Shown here in pieces: positions 37,426 through 44,149 of a DNA stretch of 44,149 bases. This stretch comes from Candidatus Zixiibacteriota bacterium (GTDB lineage Bacteria; Zixibacteria; MSB-5A5; UBA10806). The DNA lies in assembly GCA_020348065.1 (NCBI GenBank), contig CP070742.1, forward strand, positions 3,322,345 to 3,366,493. The letters are read 5' to 3'. The position numbers and the translations under genes are program-made. Positions within the stretch are counted from its first letter, which is position 1; the number at the start of each line of letters is the position of its first letter. Under the pieces are notes generated by a model, which was not told where the DNA came from, searched no databases, and saw only the letters and a list, made by a program, of their open reading frames with translations.

Positions 37426-38946
37426 CTATTTTAAAAACAGCATTTTTTTAGAAAACGAATCTCCGTCCGTATTGATTCGATAAAAATAAACGCCCGAAGT
37501 CTGATCCGAGGCGTCCCAGCGGACAACGTGCTTTCCTGAATTAAGCGGTTCGTTTAGAAGATCAGCAACCCTCTCGCCGAGGACATTGAAAACGTCGACC
37601 GAAACGTTAGAATTTTTACGGAGATAAAATTCAATATTTGTCTCGGTATTAAAGGGATTTGGATAATTTTGCAAAAGTTTGAATTTGCCGGGAATAAAAT
37701 CGACCATTTCATCTTCCACATCTACCAGGCCGGAATTTATTTTCATCATGAAGGCGTCAAAGATGTAATCTAATGAGAAGGCGGATCCGGCGATAACGAA
37801 GTTACCGTCATCTGTCTGCCTCACGCAATAGCCTATGTCAGCATCATTAATACTCATCGTACCGAACCACTGCAGATCTCCATTGTCGTCTGTCTTTACA
37901 ACATAGATGTCGCAACCGCCCTGCATAGGCGTTTCCATCAGCCCGGCGGCAATAAACCCGCCATCCGAGATTTCTCTGACGGAATTCGCGCAGTCAGATA
38001 CGCTTTCCCCGTAGGTTCTTTCCCACTGAACTGTCCCGTCCGACGACGTTTTTACCAGATACAAATCGTGATGATAGGGCGCTATGAGAATAGTTTTATA
38101 ACCTGAGACAATATAGCCGCCATCACTCGTCTGATCCACCGAGTACCCGGCATCGTAACCGTCGCCTCCGTAGGTACGATTCCATTCGACATTGCCACCC
38201 GAATCCATTTTTATCAGCCAGACGTCGAAGGCAGTTCCGATTCCGCCTCTGACACCGCAAATAATATAGCCGCCGTCCGAGGTCTGGAGGACGGATTTGG
38301 CATGATCTGCAAATAAAGGCGTGCCGTATTCCCGTGACCACATTACTTCGCCGACGCTGTCTGTCTTGACTACATAAACATCGGTATGATACTCGTCCGG
38401 TTCCGTTTTATAACCGGCCGCAATATACCCGCCGTCGGAAGTTTGAGTGATTTCCGCGAACGATTCGCCGCCGGAATCGCCATATTTCCTCGTCCAGACC
38501 GTGTCTCCTGAAGCGTCCGTTTTGATGATATACCCGTCAGATGTGGATCTGTCCCCGTCTGTAAAAAAACCGCATACGATGAAGCCGCTATCAGACGTGG
38601 GCTTAACACAGAAACCAGCATCGTTGTCCGAGTCTCCATACGTCCTTGCCCATTCGGTATTTCCGTCGCCGTCGGTTTTTATCAGCAATACATCGTTATG
38701 CACTTGCCCATACGATTTCCTACATCCGGCCAATATAAAACCGGGTAAGTCCGGATAATTGCCCTGCCCGACTTGCTCAACCCAATAAACGCAGTTGAAT
38801 TCGCCTTCTCCAAATATCTGCATCCAGATGATGTTCGGATTCTGAGCAGGGAGAATCGGAGCCGCAATAAAGATTATGAAGGAAATAGCCAGAAGATAAT
38901 TTTCGTTAAACATCTTGCGCCCCGCCTTTAGAGTTAATTCCTTCAT
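37426..38946 (-). CDS. Repeat beta-propeller protein with T9SS type A sorting domain (paralogue A)
   Basis: This 506-residue secreted protein has a signal peptide (hydrophobic LLAISFIIFIAAP, ending PAQ), about seven repeats of roughly 50 residues built on the pattern DGGYI-G-(10-15)-D-Y-VKTD--G-W-R-YG, and a C-terminal sorting domain (QNYPNPFNTETNIEFYL ... SGVYFYRINTDG, KKMLFLK). The Trp and Asp spacing suggests a propeller. The start may be ATG 38946 (GGGGAG 10 bases upstream) or ATG 38913, the position conserved with the paralogue at 39060-40568. The two are tandem duplicates with a shared upstream element. Function is unknown. Confidence 0.85.
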   Translation of the reverse strand: MKELTLKAGRKMFNENYLLAISFIIFIAAPILPAQNPNIIWMQIFGEGEFNCVYWVEQVGQGNYPDLPGFILAGCRKSYGQVHNDVLLIKTDGDGNTEWARTYGDSDNDAGFCVKPTSDSGFIVCGFFTDGDRSTSDGYIIKTDASGDTVWTRKYGDSGGESFAEITQTSDGGYIAAGYKTEPDEYHTDVYVVKTDSVGEVMWSREYGTPLFADHAKSVLQTSDGGYIICGVRGGIGTAFDVWLIKMDSGGNVEWNRTYGGDGYDAGYSVDQTSDGGYIVSGYKTILIAPYHHDLYLVKTSSDGTVQWERTYGESVSDCANSVREISDGGFIAAGLMETPMQGGCDIYVVKTDDNGDLQWFGTMSINDADIGYCVRQTDDGNFVIAGSAFSLDYIFDAFMMKINSGLVDVEDEMVDFIPGKFKLLQNYPNPFNTETNIEFYLRKNSNVSVDVFNVLGERVADLLNEPLNSGKHVVRWDASDQTSGVYFYRINTDGDSFSKKMLFLK

Positions 38947-39059: not shown

Positions 39060-40568
39060 CTACCTCAACAATATCATTTTCGTTGTCTCGGAAGACCGAT
39101 CCGTTTCGATTTTATAGAAGTAATTGCCGGATTTTAAGTCACCAGGGTTCCATACAACCTGATGACGGCCGGCCGGTCTATAACCCCTAGAGAGAGTTTC
39201 GACCTCACGACCGAGAAGATCATAGATAATTATGGTAACATCAGATGGCTCATGCAGGTTATAACGTATTTTGGTGGTTGAATTGAATGGATTGGGATAA
39301 TTTTGTTGCGTTATAAACGTTTGCGGGGCGACCTCACTCAGTTCTTCCTCTATACCGACTTGCCCCGGCCTTATTTTCATCAGAAAAGCGTCATGATACG
39401 CGCCGCCGAAATCTTCCGTATGTCCCGTCACAACGTAATTTCCGTCGAAAACCTGCCTGATGCACTCTCCGATATCGTCGTCATGTCCGCCGAAAATATC
39501 ATGCCATTCCAGGTTGCCGGAGTCATCCGTTTTTACGACATAAATATCGTTTCCTTCCTGGCCGAAAGATGTGGAGTGCCCTGTCATAATATAGCCGCCG
39601 TCCACGGTTTGCCTGACAGATAATGCGCGATCGCTTCTAGCTCCGCCATAAGTCCGCTCCCATTCGACAAAACCCTCATCGGAGATTTTGATCAAATAAA
39701 ATTCGCAGTGGCAGTTTCTGTCAGACACTGTTTTATACCCTGCGATTACATAACCGCCGTCGCTGGCTCGAGCCACCGAAAAGCCTTTATCATAGCGATC
39801 GCCGCCGTAATGCCGGGTCCATTCAATATCTCCGCCGGCATTCACTTTTGTAAGCTGAACGTCGCAGTCGACACCACCCGGCGACTCCATCCATCCGCAA
39901 AAAACAAAACCGCCGTCGTTTGACGGCTGTATAGATACGGCGCGATCAATAGAATCCGCCGGTCCATGCTCCCGGGACCAGAGAAGCTGACCGGTTGTAT
40001 TTGTTCTAACCAAGTATATATCGGTATGATAGCCGTCGGATTCAGCTATATAACCGACGGCTATATAGCCGCCATCAGATAATTGGCAGACTTCATAAAA
40101 CCGCGCGCTGCGGGAACCGCCATATTTCTTTGTCCAGACCGTATCGCCGTAAGCATCGGTTTTTAGCATATAGGCGTCAGACTTATAGGCATCTATATCC
40201 CGGGTAGCCCCACACACGATATACCCGCCATCCATCGTCGGCTTGACGCAATATCCTATGTCAGGACCATCACCGCCGTAAATCCGCTCCCATTCGACAA
40301 ATCCATCCGCGTCGGTTTTTATCAAATAGATATCCTCATAACCCATTACGAACTGTTGAGTAGATCCAACCATGATGAAACCTGGTGCCCCGCGATCATC
40401 CCGCCTCCCCGCCTCCTCAACCCATTTCGCGCCAGCCCAACCCTCCCCGCTGTAGGTTTGAAACCAGATAATACTCGGATTCTGGGCGCTGAGGTTAAAA
40501 GCCGTCATAATAATTATGAAGCAAATAACCGGAAAATGATTCTTAATATGCATTTTACACCCCGCCAT
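39060..40568 (-). CDS. Repeat beta-propeller protein with T9SS type A sorting domain (paralogue B)
   Basis: This protein of about 502 residues has the same plan as its neighbour: signal peptide (hydrophobic FPVICFIIIMTAF, ending LSAQ), about seven repeats such as DGGYIAVGYIAESDGYHTD and DGGYVIAGYKTVSD with YLVRTNTTGQLLWSREHG strands, and a sorting domain (QQNYPNPFNSTTKIRYNLHEP ... SGNYFYKIETD, KMILLR). The sorting domain resembles that of the beta-helix gene more than that of paralogue A. ATG 40568 and ATG 40553 are both possible starts; the frame also has a TTG at 40577. Tandem duplication is evident from the repeats and the shared upstream DNA. Confidence 0.85.
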   Translation of the reverse strand: MAGCKMHIKNHFPVICFIIIMTAFNLSAQNPSIIWFQTYSGEGWAGAKWVEEAGRRDDRGAPGFIMVGSTQQFVMGYEDIYLIKTDADGFVEWERIYGGDGPDIGYCVKPTMDGGYIVCGATRDIDAYKSDAYMLKTDAYGDTVWTKKYGGSRSARFYEVCQLSDGGYIAVGYIAESDGYHTDIYLVRTNTTGQLLWSREHGPADSIDRAVSIQPSNDGGFVFCGWMESPGGVDCDVQLTKVNAGGDIEWTRHYGGDRYDKGFSVARASDGGYVIAGYKTVSDRNCHCEFYLIKISDEGFVEWERTYGGARSDRALSVRQTVDGGYIMTGHSTSFGQEGNDIYVVKTDDSGNLEWHDIFGGHDDDIGECIRQVFDGNYVVTGHTEDFGGAYHDAFLMKIRPGQVGIEEELSEVAPQTFITQQNYPNPFNSTTKIRYNLHEPSDVTIIIYDLLGREVETLSRGYRPAGRHQVVWNPGDLKSGNYFYKIETDRSSETTKMILLR

Positions 40569-40634
40569 CAAATACAATACCTCGCCACGCTATCTCTCCC
40601 CGTAGATGTTTTCCTATACTAAAATACAGAAATT

Positions 40635-41055: not shown

Positions 41056-42744
41056 ATGCCCGGGACAGCTTCAAACGGCTTGAGTCCTTCATTTGATTTT
41101 TTGCACCTGGATAAAAAGCATTATAGGGATTTCAGACGACGTAATTTCATTCGTCTTATCTTTACCTATCTGGCTCCCCTTATATTAATATCGGTTTATT
41201 TTTACTTCCAGCACGGTGTAATGATATCCGAGGGCAGGCAATTAAGGTTGAAGGCCATCGCCGAGAACCAGTCTAACATGTTCGATCTTTTTCTCACCGA
41301 AAGGCTTAATAATCTTCGTAATATTGTAAACGATCCGAGACTGGAGTCGCGGCCGACCCAGGTTCAGATTGACTCTTATCTGGGTAGATTGAAAAACAGT
41401 AGCGAGACCTTTGTCGATCTCGGTTATTTCGACGAAACTGGCGTTCAAAAAATATATAGCGGTCCATATCCATCGCTTGAAAAGATAGATTACAGCAACG
41501 AATCATGGTATATATCGCTTATTGACGGCAACGATGACTTTATAATCACCGATATCTATCTCGGTTTCAGGCAAAAACCTCATTTCACAATAGCGGTCCG
41601 AAAAAATACGAACGATGAGTTCACCGTCCTGAGGGCAACCCTGGATCCCGGGAAAATTTACGAATACATAAGATCTCTGGAGGGCGCCAACGAGGTTATT
41701 TCCTACATAGTAAACCAGGAGGGTTACTATCAGATTGTTACATCTCACCTGGGAACGGCGCTGGAAACCTCCTCGATTGTCCCCCCTCGTGATGTCAGAC
41801 TGGGAATAGAAAATATCGAACTTAACGATAAGAGTATTACTTTCGCTTACTCCTGGCTTCAGAATGCTGATTGGGCCTTGATTGTGCAGCAGGCCGATGA
41901 TGCGGTCTCGTTTTTTTCAGGTTCGGGAATCAGGATAATAAGCGTTTCCGCCATTTTCATTATCATATCGCTTATAATCATCTGTGTTAGAACGCAAAAA
42001 CTTGTTGAAATACAAATTGAATCCGATAAAACCAAGGCACAACTCGAGCATGCCGCCAAGCTGGCTTCCGTGGGAGAACTTGCGGCCGGAATAGCGCACG
42101 AGATAAACAATCCCCTGGCCGCCATCAACGAAGAAGCCGGGTTAATGAAAGACCTGTTAAGCCCGGAATACGGGAATCCTGTCCAATGCAAAGAAATAAT
42201 TCCCCATCTTGATTCCATCCATGACCTGGTCTTCAGATGCAGAGATATCACCCGAAAACTGATGGGATTCGTGCGGAAAACCGATTTCGACATTAAAAAA
42301 CATAACATCAATAAGCTCATTGACGAGGTCGTGGATGGTTTATTCTCTCATGAAATGATGGTCAGCAATATCGAGCTGGTAAAAAATTACTCGAATGATA
42401 TTCCCGAATTAAAGACCGATGGCCATCAACTGCAGCAGGTATTTTTAAATGTAATAAATAACGCCGTTGACGCCATTGAAAACAGAAGAGGCACGATAAC
42501 AATTTCAACTTCGAAAAACGAGAAATCGATAGAAATAAAAATCTCTGATTCCGGAAAAGGGATTGAGCCGGATTCTATGGGAAAAATATTTATGCCCTTC
42601 TACACTACGAAAGAGGTGGGTAAAGGCACCGGGCTCGGTTTATCCGTCAGCTATGGTATTATAAAAAACCTCGGCGGGAAGATAGAGGTGAAAAGCGAAA
42701 TGGGTAAGGGAACTACATTTACCCTGAAGTTGCCGTTAATCTGA
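41056..42744 (+). CDS. Membrane sensor histidine kinase with extracytoplasmic Cache-like domain
   Basis: This 562-residue kinase has a membrane helix (about 31-51), a periplasmic sensor region (52-290) with Cache-style segments (SSETFVDLGYFDETGVQKIYSGPYP, NESWYISLIDGNDDFIITDIYLG, HFTIAVRK), a second helix (about 293-313) and a short coiled linker. The H-box is LASVGELAAGIAHEINNPLA with phospho-accepting H348. Catalytic boxes follow: N (QQVFLNVINNAVDAIE), G1 (DSGKGIEPDS), F and G2 (FMPFYTTKEVGKGTGLGLS). No HAMP or PAS domain is obvious. Cache domains bind small organic ligands. It starts a three-gene operon with a CBS protein and a receiver-transporter fusion, its likely phosphorylation target. 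Confidence 0.92.
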   Translation: MPGTASNGLSPSFDFLHLDKKHYRDFRRRNFIRLIFTYLAPLILISVYFYFQHGVMISEGRQLRLKAIAENQSNMFDLFLTERLNNLRNIVNDPRLESRPTQVQIDSYLGRLKNSSETFVDLGYFDETGVQKIYSGPYPSLEKIDYSNESWYISLIDGNDDFIITDIYLGFRQKPHFTIAVRKNTNDEFTVLRATLDPGKIYEYIRSLEGANEVISYIVNQEGYYQIVTSHLGTALETSSIVPPRDVRLGIENIELNDKSITFAYSWLQNADWALIVQQADDAVSFFSGSGIRIISVSAIFIIISLIIICVRTQKLVEIQIESDKTKAQLEHAAKLASVGELAAGIAHEINNPLAAINEEAGLMKDLLSPEYGNPVQCKEIIPHLDSIHDLVFRCRDITRKLMGFVRKTDFDIKKHNINKLIDEVVDGLFSHEMMVSNIELVKNYSNDIPELKTDGHQLQQVFLNVINNAVDAIENRRGTITISTSKNEKSIEIKISDSGKGIEPDSMGKIFMPFYTTKEVGKGTGLGLSVSYGIIKNLGGKIEVKSEMGKGTTFTLKLPLI

Positions 42745-42764
42745 ATATTCTGAGAGAACGTATT

Positions 42765-43313
42765 ATGGAAGAAAAAAAAGTAAAGGATTTGATGATAAAG
42801 CTGGACGATTACGCGGTTGTGGATATTGACGCCACCCTTCGCGACGCGATTCTGGCTCTTGAAGAGGCTCAAAAAAAAATAGAACCGGACCGCCAACCCC
42901 ACAGGGCGGTTCTGGTTGTGAATAAAAACAAGCGGATTGTCGGAAAAGTGGGGCATCTCGCTTTTTTGAAAGCCCTGGAGCCGAAATACGAGGTTATAAA
43001 GGATATTGACAAACTTTCGCGAGCCGGAGTAAGTGATGAATTCATCTCCACCATGATGGACCATTACAAGTTATTCAGGGCCGATTTCCAGGACTTGTGC
43101 CGCAAGGCTATGGGGATTAAAGTGATGGACGTTATGCATTCCGTGGGAGAAAGCGTCGACGAGGAAGCTCCTCTTGCGGAAGCGTTAAATCAATTAATCG
43201 TTCAACAGACATTATCAATACTGGTAACAAGAGACGGTAAGGTTGTGGGTTTATTAAGACTGTCGGATATCTTTGATGAGATTTCCGGCTGTATTAAAAA
43301 TATATCCGATTAA
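42765..43313 (+). CDS. CBS-domain pair protein
   Basis: This 182-residue cytoplasmic protein has two CBS motifs: residues 5-70 (KVKDLMIKLDDYAVVDIDATLRDAI ... HRAVLVVNKNKRIVGKVGHLAFLKAL) and 127-180 (IKVMDVMHSVGESVDEEAPLAEAL ... LSILVTRDGKVVGLLRLSDIFDEI), separated by a helical segment of about 50 residues. CBS pairs bind adenine nucleotides and often gate transporters or channels. It lies 20 bases after the kinase gene and 25 bases before the receiver-transporter gene, so it may give that transporter an energy-status input. Direct binding is inference. Confidence 0.88.
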   Translation: MEEKKVKDLMIKLDDYAVVDIDATLRDAILALEEAQKKIEPDRQPHRAVLVVNKNKRIVGKVGHLAFLKALEPKYEVIKDIDKLSRAGVSDEFISTMMDHYKLFRADFQDLCRKAMGIKVMDVMHSVGESVDEEAPLAEALNQLIVQQTLSILVTRDGKVVGLLRLSDIFDEISGCIKNISD

Positions 43314-43338
43314 ATGAGACGGGAGAAGAGGTTAATTT

Positions 43339-44149
43339 ATGCCCAGAGTATTGCTTGTGGACGACGAGGATTCCTTCAGGCTCCCTTTAACCCGAAGGCT
43401 TAATGTCAGGCATATCGATACAATTGAAGTTGGCAGCGGTGAAGATGCTATAAAACTTGTCAGAAGCGATTCTGATATAGATATAGTGGTTCTGGATCTC
43501 AAAATGCCGGGGATGAACGGCGAACAGGTTTTACAGGAATTAAAAAATTTCCGGCCCGAAATACAGGTCATAATGTTGACCGGGCACGGATCTTTGAATT
43601 CGGCGGTTAAAACCGGCAAACTCGACGCTTACTCCTATCTTGAAAAACCATGTGATCTTGAAAAACTGATCGGCGAAATAGAGTCGGCCCGAGAGGAAAA
43701 AATATATGCCCTGACAAGACATGAAATTCCCCACGTCGAAAAAGGATCTCTCTGGAAGTGGCTGGTCGGGACCCATAACTCAAGACCGGGAATTATCCTG
43801 CTGGGAATAATACTGTTCGCCTCCATTTTACTTCTCCCGACTCCGGACCGGCTATATAATCTGATATCATCAAAAAAAGCCGGCGCTCTCGCGGATAAAA
43901 ATATGGGATATGCGGATTACAGGAAAATGAAGGCGGGCGATTCGATCGCGTCATATTACGGAGCCAAATATAAAATAGGTAAGAATATAAAAGATGAAGA
44001 CGGCAAAAACTCATTTCAGCCATATGGCCCGGAAAAAATGGCGACAAAAGCGAAAGTGATGCTCGGCATCCTTGTCATCGCGGCCCTGTTCTGGGCGTCA
44101 GGAGCTGTCCCGGTTGGAATTACGGCTTTATTGGTAGGCGTTATAATGT
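43339..44149 (+). CDS. CheY-like receiver domain fused to an SLC13/DASS-type transporter (3' truncated)
   Basis: The frame from ATG 43339 (GAAGAGG 8 bases upstream) stays open to the window edge, giving 270 residues so far. Residues 1-120 are a receiver domain with the full active site: acidic D8/D9, phospho-accepting D53 in VVLDLKMPG, T81 in MLTGHG and K103 in YLEKP. After a linker comes a membrane helix (about 150-168: GIILLGIILFASILLLPTPD), a soluble segment (170-237), then AKVMLGILVIAALFWASGAVPVGITALLVGVIM, which follows the first conserved helices of SLC13/DASS anion symporters. The kinase upstream would phosphorylate D53, so a transporter, not DNA binding, appears to be the output. The transported anion and the rest of the protein are unseen. 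Confidence 0.82.
   Translation, partial: MPRVLLVDDEDSFRLPLTRRLNVRHIDTIEVGSGEDAIKLVRSDSDIDIVVLDLKMPGMNGEQVLQELKNFRPEIQVIMLTGHGSLNSAVKTGKLDAYSYLEKPCDLEKLIGEIESAREEKIYALTRHEIPHVEKGSLWKWLVGTHNSRPGIILLGIILFASILLLPTPDRLYNLISSKKAGALADKNMGYADYRKMKAGDSIASYYGAKYKIGKNIKDEDGKNSFQPYGPEKMATKAKVMLGILVIAALFWASGAVPVGITALLVGVIM

Follow-up and report, generated by a model that had tools for sequence, protein, structure and literature searches.

A receiver–transporter fusion within a conserved kinase–CBS module of predicted sulfate-reducing bacteria

Microbial sulfate respiration begins with the uptake of sulfate, a step whose control is poorly understood. In Desulfobacteraceae and other sulfate-reducing bacteria (SRB), genes for DASS carriers, cache kinases, receivers and CBS proteins have been found clustered; sulfate was proposed as the signal, the same sensors were noted at SulP clusters and the model put forward was transcriptional (PMC11887813; Sci Adv 2025). 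CBS or two-component genes are not mentioned by Marietou et al. 2018 (PMC5840216). Transporters and two-component domains also share one polypeptide in the SLC5-STAC kinases CbrA and CrbS, in which the kinase is the fused part and the output is transcription via CbrB or CrbR, while MgtE ties a CBS pair to a transporter. The module described here likewise unites a DASS carrier, a cache kinase, receivers and a CBS protein, as does a second module, of type B, in the same genome. The combination had been thought uncharacterised when first annotated, a view that the related kinase/CBS/DASS clusters of sulfate reducers overturn. Its distinguishing features lie elsewhere: the text of PMC11887813 mentions neither receiver-transporter or receiver-CBS fusions nor altered SNT motifs. 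Unlike CbrA and CrbS, the fusion joins a receiver alone to a transporter, which is of the DASS rather than the SLC5 type, and the kinase is encoded by a separate gene; the module differs from MgtE in its separate CBS protein and its additional receiver. A literature search for receiver-transporter fusions found no match, with subscription journals thinly covered.

The window, a stretch of 44,149 nucleotides from a Candidatus Zixiibacteriota bacterium, ends with three plus-strand ORFs that are spaced 20 and 25 bases apart, as the initial annotation reported (Table 1). A run of exactly 100 N terminates the window inside the fusion gene, and runs of this length recur elsewhere in the scaffold. 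We found that the window's final 140 bases recur exactly at one end of a contig that the scaffold places at ~2.684 Mb on the opposite strand. On this contig the fusion frame runs on to complete a DASS carrier, and a receiver-only gene comes next. Because the overlap puts the remainder of the fusion on a contig scaffolded elsewhere, the scaffold order at the window end appears to be wrong; the sites concerned lie at window position 44149 (L009:8150-8249) and at L021:8025-8124. The actual module comprises four genes, HK–CBS–REC·DASS–REC. It had been described as having three, the receiver-only gene beyond the 100-N gap having been missed. Several simpler accounts of the locus were set aside. A fusion gene ending at 312 aa was ruled out since the frame runs through the 100 N, and an assembly artefact since full-length relatives, mostly 677-699 aa, occupy a single uninterrupted frame on many gap-free contigs. 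Chance adjacency was ruled out by conservation of the arrangement in 48 other loci.

Table 1 Coordinates of the module in the window and on the contig carrying its remainder (L021).
Feature	Position	Strand	Basis or content
Kinase ORF, 562 aa	41056..42744	+	TM, periplasmic dCache_1, TM, HisKA (H348), HATPase_c
Predicted dCache_1 sensor domain, residues 65-277	41248..41886	+	Pfam, AF2 model
Kinase–CBS spacer, 20 bases	42745..42764	.	ORF coordinates
CBS-pair ORF, stand-alone, 182 aa	42765..43313	+	Pfam CBS 2.7e-13, two stretches
CBS–fusion spacer, 25 bases	43314..43338	.	ORF coordinates
5' part of receiver-DASS fusion gene, 270 aa, frame open	43339..44149	+	140-base exact overlap
Receiver domain of fusion (phospho-acceptor D53, codon 43495-43497)	43348..43680	+	Pfam Response_reg 4e-24
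TM1, ~65-aa extracytoplasmic insertion and start of SLC13/DASS core	43786..44149	+	AF2 model of homologue L023
Remainder of fusion gene	L021:6662-7996	minus	Other contig, joined by 140-base overlap
Receiver-only gene, 162 aa, after fusion gene	L021:6158-6646	minus	Same contig as fusion remainder

A scan of GTDB contigs, plus relatives, yielded 49 loci with the fusion, including the window. The other 48 span several phyla, and fusion loci fall mainly in Zixiibacteriota; the remaining MAGs are labelled Myxococcota/Deltaproteobacteria, Electryoneota, Calditrichota, Fibrobacterota, Kapabacteria, Planctomycetota and Acidobacteriota, although binning errors may account for some of these labels. A full-length kinase lies upstream of the fusion in 40 of the 49 loci, a CBS gene is adjacent in 37 (with at least two more within longer frames) and a receiver gene follows directly downstream in 44; many loci without an expected neighbour are contig ends or gaps. 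Median spacers are ~18-21 bases where the CBS gene intervenes. The genes make up a conserved operon-like module, and the co-occurrence that a neighbourhood check had been expected to reveal is indeed present.

The kinase matched dCache_1 (2.5e-18; PF02743 score of 67 bits against a cut-off of 45), HATPase_c (1.4e-26) and, just below the Pfam cut-off, HisKA (8.8e-6). Its phospho-acceptor, H348, is invariant in all 42 aligned kinases. An AF2 model of the sensor (residues 50-300, pLDDT 90.7) matched dCache chains at a VIA Z of ~20, and we assign it a predicted tandem Cache fold. The invariant candidate pocket residues are Y134, Y146, W151, D166, R172, H176, R193 and Q226. These are common to kinases linked to DASS-A, DASS-B and SulP, the one exception being D166, which is N in a single SulP-linked copy (genome G087). 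In a profile alignment with PctA, W151 fits the aromatic residue shared with the dCache_1AA motif, T195 falls at the Asp region of the amino-acid motif and R193 is new.

Judged from their sequences, the two-component phospho-residues are intact in the kinase and in both kinds of receiver: D8, D9, D53, T81 and K103 of the fused receiver are invariant (47/47 fusions), as are D11, D12, D55, T83 and K105 of the stand-alone receiver (45/45). Pfam found no known output domain on the stand-alone receiver. This protein and its orthologues end in a conserved ~45-residue tail with a consensus near LATGxSALxILRELRKLDD. None of the module receivers tested by Pfam had a DNA-binding domain; they contained Response_reg together with Na_sulph_symp/CitMHS or CBS only, and so are not predicted to be transcriptional response regulators, which carry a DNA-binding output domain. 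This bears on whether the locus is an ordinary transcriptional two-component system, with control over expression and the fused receiver a passive tether. Promoter control is assumed in the published model of Desulfobacteraceae DASS clusters (PMC11887813), but a system of that kind sits poorly with the lack of DNA-binding domains in the tested receivers, and invariance of the fused-receiver phospho-residues in 47 sequences is unlike a decaying tether. We give this explanation only a slim chance. Control without transcription, as the initial annotation had proposed, fits the Pfam-checked receivers, whereas gating by phosphorylation itself is a step that we infer.

The transporter portion inside the window is too short for Pfam scoring, and its 138-aa membrane fragment retrieved nothing from the PDB, whereas the full domain did match. 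On contig L021 the remainder of the transporter was identified by PF00939 and PF03600. Its 444-aa C-terminal part matched PF00939 (Na_sulph_symp) at 1.6e-39 and scored 183.4 bits against the NCBIfam TIGR00785 cut-off of 198.6, on a fragment that lacks TM1. Pfam domains thus uphold the identities first given to the Cache kinase, CBS pair and receiver-transporter, the DASS part by way of L021. We modelled the whole fusion with AF2 on a homologue, L023, using 47 sequences (pLDDT 86.3, pTM 0.77). Residues 1-123 of the model align to receivers at Z ~20 and residues 136-677 to NaCT, NaDC3, NaS1 and VcINDY at Z mostly 33-40, and the transporter half is modelled as a complete SLC13/DASS (INDY) fold. 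Likeness to VcINDY, NaS1 and NaCT thus extends over the whole membrane part and includes PF00939; unlike them, the fusion has an N-terminal receiver, a ~65-aa insertion after TM1 and replaced SNT motifs.

SNT motifs hold substrate and Na+ in VcINDY-type carriers. Where VcINDY has SNT/SNT, nearly all fusions have SEH in place of SNT1 and SDG in place of SNT2, and the sites of L072 and the partial L071 diverge further still. The fusion consequently lacks the two SNT motifs of DASS/SLC13 (TC 2.A.47), and because both are replaced, the coupling ion, and even transport, cannot be assumed. Loss or reduction of transport would leave the DASS part as a membrane sulfate sensor, with the fused receiver tuning or draining kinase phosphate and the stand-alone receiver serving as the output. 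In keeping with such a transceptor or phosphate sink, SEH/SDG replaces SNT1/SNT2 in nearly all fusions, a second receiver lies downstream in 44 of 49 loci and transporter-sensors are known (CbrA). However, SNT is also missing in other CBS-linked DASS types: type B carriers have SDH/ADG, type C carriers AHT/MNV or close variants, and the Kapabacteria fusions HDA/SNS, whereas canonical DASS genes in the same set have SNA/SNT. Moreover, the kinase already owns an extracytoplasmic sensor, the stand-alone receiver has no visible output domain and Desulfosarcina DASS proteins, probable relatives, are reported to be abundant and were assigned to sulfate import (PMC11887813). We consider the sensor reading unlikely.

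For a working permease, the genomic context points to sulfate. We surveyed 132 genomes of the class, 34 with the fusion and 98 without. The sulfite reductase marker dsrA was present in 33/34 fusion genomes compared with 20/98 others (p=4e-16), and aprA in 32/34 compared with 18/98. The presence of dsrA is phylogenetically clustered; by genus, dsrA was found in 24/25 with the fusion and 16/60 without (p=1.3e-9). Of 29 genomes reached via a locus that bears the fusion, or via one closely related to it, 26 carried dsrA over the cut-off. The CBS protein was likewise associated with dsrA: 49 of 52 genomes with the module-type CBS family were dsrA-positive, compared with 4/80 without it (p=1.2e-27), and a DASS match adjoins 75 of the 93 CBS-family matches. 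Genomes with PF00939 but without module-type CBS were dsrA-positive in only 3 of 28 cases, and CBS-linked DASS genes may be usable as a genomic marker of sulfate reducers. The genome containing the window itself carries sat, aprA, qmoC, dsrA, a dsrB-type second match, dsrC and dsrM. By themselves, dsr genes can also work in the oxidative direction. An 81-aa ORF after dsrB sits where DsrD would be expected; none of the models supported this identity, and DsrD was dropped as proof of the reductive direction. Taken together, the fusion genomes are, by gene content, almost all putative dissimilatory sulfate or sulfite reducers.

Neighbouring genes tell a similar story. The same genome holds a third CBS-DASS pair, with kinase and receiver, downstream of sat-aprA (L109:5603 to L123:6159, ~63-76 kb), and genome G102 has a CBS-DASS pair not far from dsrA. 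At the sat-aprA locus, the gene order is an 848-aa PPDK_N/PEP-utilizer protein, then kinase, receiver, CBS and type C DASS. In several relatives, comparably large proteins (841-859 aa) precede CBS or the kinase/receiver genes that accompany it. The CBS ORF adjoins a SulP permease in G088 and G090, and in G087 a CBS-family match lies just upstream of one, SulP identity resting on Pfam for G088 and on similarity for G087 and G090. Kinases near these SulP permeases share Y134, Y146, W151, R172, H176, R193, N220 and Q226. Beside the SulP-CBS modules we also noted receiver-containing proteins (L136:6712-8214, L138:6440-7654 and L137:1276-2526), the first of which pairs, unusually, a cytidylate kinase-like domain with a receiver (Pfam). 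Because two unrelated carrier superfamilies, DASS and SulP, share the sensor and the CBS partner, their shared substrate would be sulfate.

This evidence constitutes a strong inference, short of proof, that the fusion carries sulfate. Dicarboxylates, citrate or another organic anion would be the obvious competitors: DASS members commonly carry dicarboxylates, NaCT and NaDC3 are among the closest folds and the dCache fold is common to the organic-acid sensors KinD and DctB. Such a system is hard to reconcile with the tight dsrA/aprA association, with CBS-DASS pairs that adjoin sat-aprA or lie near dsrA, and with the same sensor and CBS beside SulP, and we hold it to be very improbable. Sulfate is accordingly a likelier substrate than the C4-dicarboxylates or citrate suggested at the outset.

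The CBS protein, which the initial annotation linked to adenylate charge, is the candidate source of an internal signal. Its CBS2 retains R165 and the ribose-type Asp, D168, the latter kept in 35/37 CBS proteins; CBS1 has A66 and lacks such an Asp. Comparison with PDB sequences, as a source of clues to the ligand, gave weak matches only. Some eight of the fusion loci are without a CBS gene in the vicinity. Several of these genomes encode one elsewhere; its neighbour is a type C DASS in two cases and a second DASS copy in one. In two genomes no family member was found at the threshold used. Since ~8 loci lack a local CBS gene and two genomes have no family match, CBS is not obligatory to the module.

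Relatives of the fusion show that its parts have been joined in more than one way. A quick tree of DASS sequences placed all fusions except Kapabacteria L078 and L080 in one clade, with unfused Desulfobacterium copies nearest and type B next. In the Kapabacteria modules (L078:5941-7770 and L080:3035-4804), the CBS, receiver and kinase are those of the other modules, but the receiver is followed by a distantly related DASS, the outcome either of an independent fusion or of an exchange of transporters. Type B (L058 and L110, the latter from the same genome as the window) has an unfused DASS and a receiver attached to the CBS pair: the second module of this genome (L110:3924-9303, ~1.044-1.049 Mb) consists of a dCache kinase, a double receiver, an unfused SDH/ADG-type DASS and a receiver-CBS fusion. 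Hdr-like genes come after it. At L029:1974-3796 a type C DASS has a receiver as its C-terminal part; the N-terminal part of this protein is in a different frame, reflecting a frameshift or sequencing error. Receivers are thus fused to the N end of two DASS types, to the DASS C end and to CBS, and the joining of receiver, CBS and DASS in several different ways argues that they act together. The initial annotation had held that kinase and CBS genes without the transporter fusion would speak against the module. Some relatives do show this arrangement, with the receiver fused to the CBS protein or stand-alone, but a gene for the transporter remains next to them; because it is kept there, the receiver–CBS–transporter association is wider than that annotation held. 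Unfused type B modules, with a 616-aa DASS and a receiver-CBS fusion, are probably relatives of the clusters in PMC11887813.

We surmise that, in a dissimilatory sulfate reducer, the module probably acts on the permease itself to control the uptake of sulfate. The dCache domain of the kinase would read external sulfate or a closely tied oxyanion, as its sensor residues and context suggest. Both receivers, the stand-alone one and the one joined to the cytoplasmic N-terminus of the permease, would then be phosphorylated by the kinase, and the phosphorylated fused receiver may alter permease activity, coupling or oligomeric state. Through the CBS protein the same permease would also receive an internal cue, in the simplest case an adenine nucleotide. 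Before sulfate respiration yields any energy, the cell must spend ion gradient and ATP on importing and activating sulfate, and permease-level control may be worthwhile for this reason. The broader proposition is that phosphorylation gates an SLC13-fold carrier directly as the regulator output, with CBS adding energy state, and that the problem of sulfate uptake has been solved several times by receiver fusion to different partners; we regard it as about evenly balanced. To our knowledge, no post-translational two-component control of a secondary carrier has been described, and this is what the fused receiver would mean. The recurrent swapping of partners, receivers with either DASS end or CBS and CBS plus sensor with DASS or SulP, lends itself to testable predictions.

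Elsewhere in the window, on the strand opposite to the module, two related, secreted-looking proteins of ~505 aa are encoded at positions 37426-38946 and 39060-40577. Both contain repeated TSDGGYI-like units and a C-terminal sorting motif of the NYPNPFN type.
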